Positions 5,459-14,339 of a stretch of 64,000 nt of DNA are shown here, piece after piece. The notes under the pieces were generated by a model, which did not search any database, was not told the origin of the DNA, and saw only the letters and a list, made by a program, of their open reading frames with translations. Position numbers and translations under genes: made by a program. Position 1 is the first letter of the stretch. Every line of letters begins with the position of its first letter. This DNA is from Thermotomaculum hydrothermale (GTDB lineage: Bacteria; Acidobacteriota; Holophagae; Thermotomaculales; Thermotomaculaceae): assembly GCF_016592575.1 (NCBI RefSeq), contig NZ_AP017470.1, forward strand, positions 620,001-684,000, given 5' to 3'.

Positions 5459-7066
5459 ATGAAAAAGATTAAACTTGGAAAATCGAAGAATATTAAAACC
5501 CTCTCCAAGAGGGATTTTGAACTGTATTCGCAAAAATCTCCTTTTCTAATTGATTCTATTTTTAAAGAGGTATACAGAGATTTAAAGAAAGGATTTTTTA
5601 ATAGAGAGGTTTTTAGAAGGTATCTCGGTAATTTCTATCTTGCTGGAGATTTTTTATCATCAATTATACTTGCGAGAAGAATTGCCACAGAATTGTTTGA
5701 GAGTTTATCTGAAGAAGATTTATCAATTGTTTATTCTGCTCTTGCCCTGCTTTTTTCTTTTTCTGGTGATACTGAAATATCTATGCGTTATATTTCTTTA
5801 ATTTCCGATTTAAAAAAAACAGATAAAGATATTGCTTACAGGTGGTTTAGCATTGCCTCAATGTTAAACGATTATGATAATGGAAACTATTTATCTTCAT
5901 ATTTAAATGGAAAGAGGATAATTACAGCTATTTCAGGCCTTGATTCTTCTCATGGAGTTTTTACGTTTCAACCTAAATTTCACCTTTTGGGGATTTTAAC
6001 AAGGGTTACAAATCGCTCGGCGCAAAAACTTGCTCAAAATGAAAAAGTTGGCTCTGAAAAGAGAAAAAGATATTTTGACACTATGTTAGAAATACTTAAA
6101 GAGATAAAAAAAATGGATAGTAAGCCATTTGATTTTTTTTATTACTGTGAATTAGCAAACTTACACTCATCAATGCATAGTTTCCCTAAAGCAGAAAAAG
6201 CATTGAATAGTGCATTTGATTTAATAAAAGCAAGCAAAAAGGCTTTTAATAAATATAGCTATATCTACTACCTTACTAAAGCCAATTACTTTACTCAAAA
6301 AGGTGATTTTTCAGAAGCCTATAAACAGATTAAACTTGCCTATCGTGCTTCTTTCAATGTTTCTGATGTTTACGATGAATTAGATGTAATCAACATATTT
6401 TTAGAAACTGCAAGACAGTTTTCCATATCAGACCCTTCTTTAAGGCAGCAAACAAGCGAATTTTATATGCAGGGTAATTCTCTTTTAAAACAATTTGTAA
6501 ATTTTCTTGAAGAAAAAGATTGGTATACAGGGAAAAACCACTCTGCAAAGGTTGCAGGGTTGAGCCATTTAATTGCAAAAAAGCTGGTTACAGTTTTCCC
6601 GTATATGAAGAATTTTATTGATATTCAATCAGTTTACCTTGCTGGGTATGTACACGATATAGGAAAGGTTAAAATTCCCTGGCTTTTAATAAATAAAATA
6701 ACCAAACTTGAGGAATTTGAGGTTGACTATCTAATGAAACATGTTGTTTTTGGGAGAGATATTCTTGAAGACTTAAACTTTTATTCAATAGCGAGAATTA
6801 TCTATCAACACCATGAGAGTCCTGATGGAGCAGGTTATCCAGAGGGGATAAAAAATGTTTCTGTTGAGGCAAACATAATATCATTGGCGGATTCTTTTGA
6901 GGCAATGACAACATCAAATAGAAAATACAAAAAACCAAAATCCCTTGAAACTGCAAAAGAAGAGATAATATCACTTGCGGGAAGTAAATACTATCCTGAA
7001 ATTATTGAATCCTTTAAAATGATTAGTTCTGAAGAATTAAAAACTTTTTTAAGCAGGTTGAAATAA
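5459..7066 (+). CDS. HD-GYP domain phosphodiesterase with helical N-terminal region
   Basis: Probable cyclic-di-GMP phosphodiesterase or related signalling hydrolase. The first 350 or so residues are helical, with TPR-like pairs (for example near residues 220-320), and have no transmembrane segment. The C-terminal part is an HD-GYP domain: His399-Asp400 in VHDIGKVKIP, then HHESPDGAGYP with Gly-Tyr-Pro at 459-461, then ISLADSFEAM. All the metal-binding marks are present, so it should be active. The TPR-like part may be a protein-binding sensor. No clear ribosome site precedes the ATG. Its stop codon touches the left arm of the inverted repeat at 7066-7083. Confidence 0.88.
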   Translation: MKKIKLGKSKNIKTLSKRDFELYSQKSPFLIDSIFKEVYRDLKKGFFNREVFRRYLGNFYLAGDFLSSIILARRIATELFESLSEEDLSIVYSALALLFSFSGDTEISMRYISLISDLKKTDKDIAYRWFSIASMLNDYDNGNYLSSYLNGKRIITAISGLDSSHGVFTFQPKFHLLGILTRVTNRSAQKLAQNEKVGSEKRKRYFDTMLEILKEIKKMDSKPFDFFYYCELANLHSSMHSFPKAEKALNSAFDLIKASKKAFNKYSYIYYLTKANYFTQKGDFSEAYKQIKLAYRASFNVSDVYDELDVINIFLETARQFSISDPSLRQQTSEFYMQGNSLLKQFVNFLEEKDWYTGKNHSAKVAGLSHLIAKKLVTVFPYMKNFIDIQSVYLAGYVHDIGKVKIPWLLINKITKLEEFEVDYLMKHVVFGRDILEDLNFYSIARIIYQHHESPDGAGYPEGIKNVSVEANIISLADSFEAMTTSNRKYKKPKSLETAKEEIISLAGSKYYPEIIESFKMISSEELKTFLSRLK

Positions 7067-7083
7067 GAGATAACCATGCTGTA
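7066..7083. repeat. Left arm of 18-bp perfect inverted repeat around the acetyltransferase gene
   Basis: The sequence AGAGATAACCATGCTGTA is the exact reverse complement of 7710-7727. It begins at the last base of the HD-GYP stop codon and ends 9 bases before the stop codon of the acetyltransferase gene. The match nearly continues outward (AAAT on both sides with one base offset) and stops inward. Confidence 0.9.
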
Positions 7084-7092
7084 GTTTTCGTA

Positions 7093-7689
7093 TTAACCGC
7101 CTTTAAACTCTTCGTCCCATACCATGTTTTCAAATTTGTCAATTAAACTTTCAAGGTCTGCTACCATAATAATTAAATTGTGTTTTTTGCCCTTGGTGTC
7201 AACAATGTAATTTGGAAGGGTTGCAGTCTTTTTGAATCCTAATTCTTCAAGAATATGGATTGCAGCTTTTTGCTCTTCCATTACCTCTGCTTCCACAAGG
7301 TCAAGGTTTCTCATTTCTTGAGCTTTAAAGAAAATCTGTTGAGCAAGATACTTTGATAGCCCTAAGTTTCTGTAATTAGGATCAACTATAATTCTTAATT
7401 TCCCGATATGAGATTTCCATCCAAAATTTGTCCAGTAAAGGGTTGATGAACCTACTATTTTTTTGTCTTTATTCCAGGCAACAATTGATACTCTGTTGCC
7501 TTTTTCAATTGCTTTTACCCTTTCTTCAACAAATCCGATATTTGTGACATCATACTTTAAATATAATTTGTCATCATCGGTTAACCTGTTAAGAAAATCA
7601 AAATACTCTTTGTATTGATCACTTTTCAGCAAATCAATAGTTAATTCCTCGCCGTTAGGCAATTTGTGCTTATGAGGATAACTAAACAT
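7093..7689 (-). CDS. GNAT family N-acetyltransferase
   Basis: Acetyl-CoA-dependent N-acetyltransferase of unknown substrate, 198 residues. The core GNAT pieces are visible: a substrate-side strand around AWNKDKKIVGSSTLYW, then KLRIIVDPNYRNLGLSKYLAQQI, which corresponds to the acetyl-CoA pyrophosphate-binding motif, then EAEVMEEQKAAIHILEELGFKK, the usual C-terminal motif. AGGAGGTGG precedes the ATG closely. The gene is convergent with the HD-GYP gene and stands alone. It lies wholly between two perfect 18-bp inverted repeats, which is unusual for a housekeeping acetyltransferase. Confidence 0.85.
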   Translation of the reverse strand: MFSYPHKHKLPNGEELTIDLLKSDQYKEYFDFLNRLTDDDKLYLKYDVTNIGFVEERVKAIEKGNRVSIVAWNKDKKIVGSSTLYWTNFGWKSHIGKLRIIVDPNYRNLGLSKYLAQQIFFKAQEMRNLDLVEAEVMEEQKAAIHILEELGFKKTATLPNYIVDTKGKKHNLIIMVADLESLIDKFENMVWDEEFKGG

Positions 7690-7709
7690 TCCACCTCCTC
7701 TTATATTTT

Positions 7710-7727
7710 TACAGCATGGTTATCTCT
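7710..7727. repeat. Right arm of 18-bp perfect inverted repeat
   Basis: TACAGCATGGTTATCTCT, the exact reverse complement of 7066-7083. It lies 20 bases upstream of the acetyltransferase ATG, so it would fall in the 5' leader of that transcript if transcription starts further upstream. Confidence 0.9.
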
Positions 7728-7858
7728 ATTTAAAATATACAAAATAAAAAAGATTTTGTCAAACAAAATTAAGTTAAGGCAAAGATATGGAGAAGAGGTT
7801 TTTGTTATCTGCTTAATTCTTAGAAAGATTAACAGGTTAAATTAAAATTAAAAAATAT

Positions 7859-7887: not shown

Positions 7888-7893
7888 AAATTG

Positions 7894-7928
7894 ACTCTTT
7901 AAACCGGTACAGCGATGCCGGTAAGAGG
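7894..7928 (+). promoter_or_regulatory. PyrR-binding RNA element in the pyr leader
   Basis: The transcript here can fold into a two-part stem: CTCTT (7895-7899) with AAGAG (7923-7927), an internal bulge, then ACCGG (7903-7907) with CCGGT (7918-7922) and the loop TACAGCGATG. This arrangement, with CTTTAA on the 5' side and a purine-rich loop, matches the known PyrR anti-antiterminator class. It lies just after the predicted start site and upstream of a terminator and of pyrR itself. With UMP or UTP, PyrR is expected to bind and lower downstream expression. Loop bases differ somewhat from the Bacillus form. Confidence 0.75.
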
Positions 7929-7982
7929 TGAGGGATGATGATAGAAATTACAATCAGGTTACAATTTAATAATCTATAAATG

Positions 7983-8010
7983 AGAGGCTGGGTATTCAGC
8001 CTCTTTTTTT
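7983..8010 (+). terminator. Attenuator-type terminator upstream of pyrR
   Basis: AGAGGCTG (7983-7990) pairs with CAGCCTCT (7997-8004) over a 6-base loop and is followed by a run of T. It sits between the PyrR element and the pyrR start codon, the position of the attenuator in PyrR-controlled operons. The competing antiterminator helix was not obvious by eye. Confidence 0.8.
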
Positions 8011-8023
8011 GTAAGGGGGAAGT

Positions 8024-8563
8024 ATGTCTAAAGAAAAGGTCATTATGGATGAAAAACTTATGGAAAGAACAATTAAGAGAATGACCCATGAGATTTTAGA
8101 GGCAACCAAGGGAACAGACGATTTGTTGTTAATTGGGATCAGGACAAGGGGAGATCACATAGCAAAGAGAATAGCACGGTACATCAAAGAGTTTGAAGGA
8201 GTTGAGGTACCTGTGGGGCTTCTTGACATCACACTTTACAGGGATGATTTAATTACAAATGTTACAAATGCTTACCTTAAAGAAACGGAAATTCCCTTTC
8301 CTGTTACAGATAAAAAGGTTGTTCTAATTGACGATGTTCTTTACACAGGAAGGACTGTTAGGGCTGCAATAGAGGGAATACTTGATTTTGGTAGGCCAAG
8401 GTATATAAAACTTGCAGTTTTGGTTGATAGGGGACATAGAGAGTTGCCAATAAGGGCTGATATTGTTGGGAAAAACATTCCCACTTCAAAAGATGAAATG
8501 GTTCAGGTATATGTTGCCGAAGAAGACGGTAAAGATATGGTTGTTTTAAAGAAAAAAAATTGA
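8024..8563 (+). CDS. pyrR: Bifunctional pyr operon regulator / uracil phosphoribosyltransferase
   Basis: RNA-binding regulator of pyrimidine genes that also has phosphoribosyltransferase activity (uracil plus PRPP to UMP). At 179 residues it is the usual size. The PRPP-binding loop VVLIDDVLYTGRTVRAA is near residues 107-123, and the C-terminal VDRGHRELPIRADIVGKN is typical of PyrR. GGGGGA precedes the ATG. The gene heads pyrB and pyrC, and its own leader carries the RNA element it should bind, so it probably autoregulates. Confidence 0.96.
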   Translation: MSKEKVIMDEKLMERTIKRMTHEILEATKGTDDLLLIGIRTRGDHIAKRIARYIKEFEGVEVPVGLLDITLYRDDLITNVTNAYLKETEIPFPVTDKKVVLIDDVLYTGRTVRAAIEGILDFGRPRYIKLAVLVDRGHRELPIRADIVGKNIPTSKDEMVQVYVAEEDGKDMVVLKKKN

Positions 8564-12203: not shown

Positions 12204-12752
12204 TTAGAGTATTTCAATTTTTAAATCAGGGTGCGGTGATGGGATTATAGTTGTGGAAACAAGCATTGCTTTGTCTTTTACGGCATCAACTCCGCTTTTA
12301 ACTGATGCTTCAACATCCGCAACTGTACCTGTGAAAACTGTGAAAGCTTTTCCGCCTAACCCCATCGCCATTCTTATTTCAATTAGCTCTATTGATGCGG
12401 TTTTTACCGCTGCGTCAGCAGCATAGATAGATGAAACAACTGAAAATGTTTCAATTACCCCTAACGCTTCTACATTTGATACTGTTTTTGTAGAGTATAG
12501 TGCGGGAAAAACATCAGGGTGAACATTTGGTATAACAAGACTATCAACTACATATCTATCCCCTTCTTCGATCCCGTTTGCAATTGCTGCTTCAACCTCT
12601 GCAACTTCCCCGTTAACAAATACTATGTATTTTCCGGGACATATTGTCTGTGATGTTACAAGTTTCACTTTTGCAGTTTTTAAAACTCTATCACAAACCT
12701 GGAATCCTCTTGCTATACTGTTTAACTCAATCATTCCTATTGCACTATTCAT
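12204..12752 (-). CDS. Tandem-BMC microcompartment shell protein, PduT-like
   Basis: Trimeric shell tile of a bacterial microcompartment. The 182 residues hold two BMC domains (about 1-90 and 95-182). The N-terminal AIGMIELNSIARG and SQTICPGK closely follow PduT. Cys38 in TICPGK is at the position that ligates a central [4Fe-4S] cluster in PduT trimers, so this tile may pass electrons through the shell. It lies one base after the PduS-like gene and is last in a three-gene cassette. No hexameric shell protein or core enzyme gene adjoins it. Confidence 0.93.
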   Translation of the reverse strand: MNSAIGMIELNSIARGFQVCDRVLKTAKVKLVTSQTICPGKYIVFVNGEVAEVEAAIANGIEEGDRYVVDSLVIPNVHPDVFPALYSTKTVSNVEALGVIETFSVVSSIYAADAAVKTASIELIEIRMAMGLGGKAFTVFTGTVADVEASVKSGVDAVKDKAMLVSTTIIPSPHPDLKIEIL

Positions 12753-12753
12753 A

Positions 12754-14061
12754 TCAACTTCCTATTATAACAAAGTTATTGTTTACTTTTTTAACTATTC
12801 CATTAACGGGAGAATGAACCGGTACACATAGTGATTTTTCTTCACACTTTGAAATTGGTTCTCCCTTTGATACCTTATCTCCTTCTTCTACAACTGGAAT
12901 TGACGGTGCCCCAATGTGTTGTGTTAAGGGAATTATGTAGTCTCCACTGTATTCAAATTCTCCAATAAATTCAGGCTCTATATCAAGGTGAAGAATTGAA
13001 AGCCTTGCCATTAGCCTTTTTGTGGGAATCTTTTTAGCTTCATTAAAGGGGTCTGCTCTATGCTCTTTTGGTGGAATGTCGTAATCTTTAAGTTTCTGGC
13101 GAAAGTGTGCATAAACTCTTTTTGGGGATAAACCAAAGGGGCAGGCAAACATTGAGCATACTCCGCATTGACAGCAAAGATAAGCAGCCTGGGCAATGTG
13201 TGAGGTTGAATCAAGTCCGTAGTTTAAAGTTCTCATAATCATGTGTGGTTCAATATCGTGTCCTAAATTGTGCCTTGGACAAAGCACTGTACACTCTGTA
13301 CACTGGCAACAAGCCGCTTTTGAAAACCTTGTCACTGAATCAAATGATGCAGTTTTCTCTCTTACGGCTGGATTGTTTTTATTTAAAAACACAAGAGCAC
13401 CTGTTGTTTTTGTTAAGACATCTTCAGGTGTTTTTACCTTTCCCATCATAACACCGCCTTCAATTAAAACAGTGTCTTCTTTTGGTTTTGCGTGTTCAAT
13501 TAATGCTTTGAAAGGAGTTCCTACATTGACTATAGCCACAAATGGATTTTCAACCTCTCCAACCACTGACACATACCTCTGATAAACAGGTACATTGTTT
13601 TCAACAGCATTGGCAATTTGAGCAAGTGTAAGGGCATTGTTTACTACAACTCCTACATCAATAGGAATCCCCTTTTGAGGCACAATTCTTCCTGTAACAT
13701 CGTAAACAAGGGATTGCTCATCCCCTGCCGGGTAGTAGTCCCCTAATTGAAATAGTTTGATATTATCAGCCTTTTGCCTTTTTATCTCTTCTTCTATTAG
13801 TGGAAATAGCTTGCTTCTTTTCTTTTTTATTGCAAAGAAACCATTTTTAGCACCTGTGGTTTCCATTGCGATCTTTAAACCTTTTATTATGTCTGTAATC
13901 TGATTTTTAATTACATAGTAGTCTGTGTAGAGCAATGGTTCGCATTCTGCTGCATTGCAAATATAGGTGTCAGGTTTTGAGTTTAGTTTTACATAGGTGG
14001 GGAATCCTGCTCCGCCTGCTCCCACAATTCCTGCATTTTTAACTTTATCTATAACGCTCAT
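12754..14061 (-). CDS. PduS/RnfC-like flavoprotein with two [4Fe-4S] clusters
   Basis: Electron-transfer protein related to cobalamin reductase PduS and RnfC. The glycine-rich GIVGAGGAGFP (11-21) belongs to the nucleotide/flavin-binding Rossmann domain. Two ferredoxin-type motifs follow: Cys251-x2-Cys254-x2-Cys257-x3-Cys261 and Cys296-x2-Cys299-x2-Cys302-x4-Cys307. The C-terminal part (about 375-435) resembles the RnfC barrel-sandwich domain. In Pdu systems PduS is thought to work with PduT; the same pair is adjacent here, and the start overlaps the vertex-protein gene by 4 bases (ATGA). The redox partner and substrate are not shown. Confidence 0.92.
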   Translation of the reverse strand: MSVIDKVKNAGIVGAGGAGFPTYVKLNSKPDTYICNAAECEPLLYTDYYVIKNQITDIIKGLKIAMETTGAKNGFFAIKKKRSKLFPLIEEEIKRQKADNIKLFQLGDYYPAGDEQSLVYDVTGRIVPQKGIPIDVGVVVNNALTLAQIANAVENNVPVYQRYVSVVGEVENPFVAIVNVGTPFKALIEHAKPKEDTVLIEGGVMMGKVKTPEDVLTKTTGALVFLNKNNPAVREKTASFDSVTRFSKAACCQCTECTVLCPRHNLGHDIEPHMIMRTLNYGLDSTSHIAQAAYLCCQCGVCSMFACPFGLSPKRVYAHFRQKLKDYDIPPKEHRADPFNEAKKIPTKRLMARLSILHLDIEPEFIGEFEYSGDYIIPLTQHIGAPSIPVVEEGDKVSKGEPISKCEEKSLCVPVHSPVNGIVKKVNNNFVIIGS

Positions 14062-14339
14062 TTTATTTCCTTTCCATCTATAACAAAACTATCAACAATG
14101 CCTATTATGGCTGAATCAACAGGGCAGTCTTTCATTCCCTCTGCCATTCTTGCTGAACTTCCCTGAACAACCAAAACATACTCTTTATAGCCTGCGCTAA
14201 CTGTGTCAACGGCAACAAGGTAATCCTTTTTTTCTTTAAGATTTTCGTCCACTGGAATTACAACAAGAAGTTTTTTTCCGTAAAGTTTTGGGTCTTTTCT
14301 TGTGGCAACAACAGTTCCGCTAACCTTTCCTATAAACAT
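14058..14339 (-). CDS. Microcompartment vertex protein, EutN/CcmL/PduN family
   Basis: Pentameric BMC-P protein that caps the corners of a microcompartment shell. The 93 residues start MFIGKVSGTVVATRKD and contain VDTVSAGYKEYVLVVQGSSAR and DSAIIGIVDSF, the usual fold marks. It is first of the three-gene cassette, with GGAG before the ATG and a TATAAT upstream. One vertex gene in a locus usually signals a closed shell, but hexamer genes must lie elsewhere if a compartment is made. Confidence 0.93.
   Translation of the reverse strand: MFIGKVSGTVVATRKDPKLYGKKLLVVIPVDENLKEKKDYLVAVDTVSAGYKEYVLVVQGSSARMAEGMKDCPVDSAIIGIVDSFVIDGKEIK

Follow-up and report, generated by a model that had tools for sequence, protein, structure and literature searches.

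In the icaR mRNA of Staphylococcus aureus, a 3′ motif in the long 3′ UTR pairs with the Shine-Dalgarno region, which blocks initiation and creates an RNase III site (PMC3868564). Long-distance 5′-3′ pairing is also found in the hok/aapA type I toxin mRNAs, whose full-length transcripts are highly stable and whose folding is conserved in relatives; these short toxin mRNAs, which have an antisense RNA, are kept inert by masking of the Shine-Dalgarno sequence and are activated by 3′ trimming (PMC6733600). Neither circularised bacterial mRNAs nor the hok fbi/tac wording gave any match in literature searches. The locus analysed here resembles icaR in that pairing between the 5′ and 3′ UTRs is proposed, in this case for the mRNA of a GNAT acetyltransferase gene of Thermotomaculum hydrothermale.

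The GNAT locus and its inverted repeat

The window (the whole stretch of DNA analysed, 64,000 nucleotides) contains the following features at the locus:

7734..7762, (-) strand: GNAT promoter, with -35 TTGACA at 7762-7757, a 17-nt spacer and -10 TATATT at 7739-7734; predicted +1 at 7727
7710..7727, (-) strand: 5′ arm of the repeat, nucleotides +1 to +18 of the predicted mRNA, AGAGAUAACCAUGCUGUA
7709..7717, (-) strand: mini-ORF AUG-CUG-UAA from the codon listing, beginning within the 5′ arm; putative role
7694..7699, (-) strand: Shine-Dalgarno sequence AGGAGG, outside the predicted helix and conserved in four species
7093..7689, (-) strand: GNAT acetyltransferase of 198 aa (Pfam PF00583, E 2.3e-11), enclosed by the predicted helix
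7066..7083, (-) strand: 3′ arm of the repeat, 9 nt past the GNAT stop codon, UACAGCAUGGUUAUCUCU, with pairs kept through changes
5459..7066, (+) strand: convergent HD-GYP gene, whose stop codon overlaps the arm by one base, its last and the arm's first

The original prediction of a perfect 18-bp inverted repeat was confirmed in the sequence, where 7066-7083 (+) reads AGAGATAACCATGCTGTA and 7710-7727 is its exact reverse complement, and the open reading frame listing likewise bore out the claim that GNAT (7093-7689) is the sole gene between the arms. One detail is corrected, in that the first base of the left arm is the last base of the HD-GYP stop codon (TAA, 7064-7066). For comparison within the family, eight other acidobacterial genomes were used, four from the same genus (G001-G004) and four from a sister genus (G005-G008); the source genome is G000.

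The GNAT promoter (TTGACA-17-TATATT) matches the consensus at 11 of 12 positions. Hexamers and spacing are identical in G002 and G004, and in G001 the -35 element and the spacer are identical up to the contig end. The predicted +1, seven bases after the -10 hexamer, coincides with the first base of the arm (7727 here) in G000, G002 and G004; this start site is predicted from the consensus, and neither a 3′ end nor a terminator was recognised for the GNAT transcript. An AUG lies inside the 5′ arm in all four GNAT-bearing species, with an in-frame stop as the third to fifth codon.

Three further observations were made. The G001 assembly is broken (L007:1 / L101 end; C112 / C106) downstream of the -10 element, ahead of the bases that open the 5′ arm. 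A PyrR-binding leader (RF00515) at window positions 7892-8012 (+) scored 44 bits (E 1.6e-4), under the gathering score of 54, and was missed at the default Rfam threshold; it lies upstream of pyrR-pyrB and has a terminator-like hairpin at 7982-8005. At window positions 12204-14339 (-), an RnfC-like protein with a Complex1_51K domain is flanked by microcompartment shell genes (BMC, EutN/CcmL).

Rarity and conservation of the repeat

Background levels were measured on sample stretches making up 37% of the genome (864 kb, with 464 kb used for the inverted-repeat scan). Among perfect inverted repeats separated by a gap of 100-2500 nt, the repeat at this locus was the longest in the 464 kb scanned, and in five Markov simulations of the same 464 kb a length of 18 bp was never reached and 17 bp was reached in two cases. 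When the 100 nt upstream of each open reading frame were compared with the 100 nt downstream (804 ORFs in 864 kb), GNAT ranked first with a complementarity of 18, followed by one ORF at 17 and the rest at 13 or less. Because it is both the longest in the scanned DNA and first among the 804 ORFs, the repeat is, at the level of sequence, more than a chance match, as had been claimed, and its conservation in relatives settles the point.

No further copy of the 18-mer with two or fewer mismatches was found in the whole 2.32-Mb genome, a check that the original prediction had proposed; four extra matches in the genome each carried three mismatches. Three of the four gene-bearing genomes carry just two copies of the 12-mer core GAGATAACCATG, one in each arm; the fourth has a single copy, one base having changed in its 3′ arm. 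The core is absent outside the arms throughout these four genomes, and a scattered operator motif was rejected on this ground. An Rfam search with the arms matched no known RNA family.

No genome-wide class of end-closed genes was apparent among the 804 ORFs (864 kb), the only other outlier being a zinc-ribbon gene in sampled stretch L027. This second bracketed gene (L027:7759-8141, G000:C1:407759-408141) encodes a small, three-repeat zinc-ribbon-like protein, and its inverted repeat (7759-7778 / 8122-8141) comprises 17 perfect positions, or 20 when a single mismatch, G·U on the gene's strand, is allowed. The gene is unrelated to GNAT and may share the end-closed layout. Its bracketing may also have another cause, since no homologue was found in the eight relatives or in 396 genomes searched across the phylum, and a tyrosine-recombinase C-terminal remnant adjoins the gene. 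Separately, four sampled stretches (L024:290-1523, L037:11852-13084, L039:13968-15201 and L040:18694-19926) contain TTAATTGTGTCAGG inverted repeats whose arms are separated by 1205-1206 nt; these are probably one insertion-sequence family.

The repeat is present at the same two places in all three GNAT-bearing congeners (G001, G002 and G004), where GNAT (90-95% protein identity) faces the same HD-GYP gene in convergent orientation. Identity at synonymous four-fold sites among these species is only 28-58%, so the arms are strongly constrained. At its outer end the 5′ arm has 13 bases that are invariant across the four species; its inner bases vary (CTGTA in the window, TCGT in G001, CCGA in G002 and CCGT in G004), and the other arm follows. 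The remaining congener, G003, is without GNAT and without an orthologous HD-GYP gene; a helicase-like gene (DEAD-box, by eye) adjoins pyrR there, and the break in synteny lies well upstream of the GNAT promoter, away from the repeat ends. In the sister genus the convergent pair is present without the repeat, with a GNAT of 56-60% protein identity, and a terminator-like sequence was recognised by eye in the gap in G005 and G007 and further on in G006; the G008 contig ends before this point. A gene retained without its repeat, the counter-case raised with the original prediction, was thus found in the sister genus only, whereas within the genus gene and repeat co-occur. The helix therefore seems to be confined to this genus.

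Proposed pairing of the message ends

In the four-species alignment, every species has a standard pair at 16 of 17 positions. Both partners have changed in two pairs (C-G/U-A and U-A/A-U); where one partner alone has changed, in three cases, the result is G·U, and this holds only for the GNAT-sense strand. In register, 95.6% of cells were paired, compared with 26-53% when the partner was slid by 1-3 columns. The observed covariation was, however, reached in 30 of 500 shuffles (6%), and with only four sequences covariation alone is weak support for a helix.

The strand on which pairs are kept is informative. In each of the three within-species differences between the arms, the 5′ arm has T where the mirrored 3′ arm has C, so that RNA of the GNAT strand retains a G·U pair at that position and RNA of the opposite strand loses pairing there. 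The GNAT-sense helix thus runs without a break in each of the four species (16-18 bp, -27.6 to -30.3 kcal/mol), whereas the opposite-strand helix has internal mismatches in G001 and G004 (-22.6 and -24.0 kcal/mol), and a helix on the HD-GYP strand was rejected. This asymmetry points to pairing in the GNAT mRNA, and not in an HD-GYP read-through transcript or in double-stranded DNA. Folding of the four full transcripts predicted the helix with a probability of ~0.99 at 37, 55 and 65 °C, and blocking the 3′ arm in the prediction cost 19-23 kcal/mol. The helix ends 19-22 nt upstream of the start codon and begins 9-12 nt past the stop codon, and these distances are conserved. Twelve of the 17 pairs never vary across the four species, an invariance beyond what pairing requires that hints at an added, sequence-specific role for the arms.

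One of the readings offered originally, a paired 5′ leader and 3′ end, is supported by the compensatory changes, by the sense-only G·U changes and by the position of the arm at the predicted +1. It is quite probable that the repeat encodes a long-range RNA helix between the two ends of the GNAT mRNA. The likely explanation for the locus overall is a panhandle GNAT message, with its ends sealed against RNases and its ribosome-binding site free. Transcription would start at ~7727, as judged from the conserved promoter, so that the message would begin with the 5′ arm as its first 17-18 nt. Once the polymerase has passed the stop codon and the 3′ arm has been made, the arms would pair and close the ~0.63-kb message as a panhandle. 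The borders of the helix would then lie close to the edges of the footprints of an initiating and a terminating ribosome, the distances at both ends being about those of such footprints, with the Shine-Dalgarno sequence outside the stem. In this arrangement the 5′ end would be hidden from 5′-end-dependent decay and the same helix would cap the 3′ end, with translation presumably still possible; an actively translated reading frame full of ribosomes could itself hold the arms apart. The genome encodes both RNase J (566 bits) and RNase E/G (514 bits), each over its cut-off, and these are enzymes for which the 5′ end of an mRNA matters (review PMC3997798). Because the helix would join +1 to a segment just behind the coding region, shielding both ends, and because these enzymes are encoded, the main effect of the helix, if it forms, is somewhat more probably stabilising than repressive.

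Alternative readings and described systems

A perfect inverted repeat that tightly flanks a single gene could also mark the ends of a mobile cassette or the sites of a site-specific inversion, both of which had been suggested originally, and the position of the promoter just outside the repeat means that a flip would turn the gene off. Each genome has one such locus with no other copies, and G001, G002 and G004 have kept the repeat vertically in the same position, with changes that match between the arms, which argues against a cassette, as does G003, where the break lies upstream of the GNAT promoter and not at the repeat, the HD-GYP gene has gone too and there is no empty site at the repeat ends. 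Inversion is opposed by the single orientation in all family genomes with a close homologue, and a domain scan of 15 neighbouring genes found no recombinase, in agreement with what had been noted earlier. Both readings were rejected and are highly improbable. A regulator acting on DNA is less remote, if still unlikely: it would bind two copies of a 13-bp sequence, one at +1 and one behind the gene, and so loop the DNA, with the arms co-evolving with the protein. The invariance of the outer 13 bp of the 5′ arm across four species goes beyond the needs of pairing, and +1 to +18 is the classic position of a repressor site. Such a double operator would have to use a motif that is no palindrome and has no other occurrence in the genomes, and each of the three differences between the arms is T against C in the direction that keeps G·U in the GNAT RNA.

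Two other readings concern the transcript. The helix might serve chiefly as a terminator or 3′-end element where the two genes converge, the arms being kept alike by gene conversion, and this would fit with the terminator-like sequences that take this place in G005 and G007 (further on in G006, by eye), with a terminator scan of the gap in the window that found none, and with some U-rich sequence after the arm in G001 and G002. G000 and G004 are without an uninterrupted U-tract after the arm, and gene conversion leaves unexplained both why the mismatches are all G·U on one strand and why an arm sits at the predicted +1; we regard this replacement of a terminator as quite unlikely. A more credible, though still doubtful, alternative keeps the same RNA helix and gives it a repressive effect, the closed form being poorly translated, or cleaved by RNase III, until it is opened, with an AUG-NNN-stop mini-ORF hidden in the 5′ arm (compare icaR and hok/aapA). 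The bacterial 5′-3′ UTR helices of the two papers cited above do repress translation (PMC3868564, PMC6733600), the AUG of the mini-ORF is within the arm in four of four species, and in G000 the Shine-Dalgarno sequence is also able to pair locally with a UCCUC early in the coding sequence. The sequence of that local hairpin is not conserved, however; the Shine-Dalgarno sequence and start codon are outside the helix in all species, unlike icaR and aapA with their paired Shine-Dalgarno sequences, and folding predictions with the 3′ arm blocked showed little change in Shine-Dalgarno accessibility.

Set beside the described systems, the locus has the long leader/3′ UTR complementarity (18 bp, the longest of the 804 ORFs) of 5′-3′ UTR pairing, together with compensatory change in relatives (in four species, with the score reached in 6% of shuffles). 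Judged on such sequence features it is a putative 5′-3′ UTR-pairing mRNA, without the features that define the icaR type or the hok/aapA type. In the GNAT mRNA it is the extreme 5′ end that would pair, 9-12 nt after the stop codon, with the Shine-Dalgarno sequence left outside; the 3′ UTR is not paired with the Shine-Dalgarno region as in icaR, the helix ending 19-22 nt before the start codon. As in hok/aapA, both ends of the message are predicted to pair and the folding is kept in relatives, but the locus encloses a 198-aa enzyme and not a small hydrophobic toxin peptide, its Shine-Dalgarno sequence is free, and there is no sign of a toxin-antitoxin pair. In 5′ stabiliser stem-loops of the ompA type, a helix at the very 5′ end shields the message from end-dependent RNases; in the GNAT message the partner strand of the 5′ end lies at the opposite end, ~630 nt distant. 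The known helices of icaR and hok/aapA repress by covering the ribosome-binding site, whereas the GNAT helix would leave that site free, in a layout in which the 5′ nucleotides of an ordinary enzyme gene are paired just behind its stop codon, genus-wide. A housekeeping-type mRNA closed by its own terminal nucleotides, with borders that fit ribosome footprints, might tentatively be seen as a bacterial version, translatable and protein-free, of the closed-loop mRNA of eukaryotes. Should the helix control decay, both ends of a bacterial message would be protected at once by simple means.
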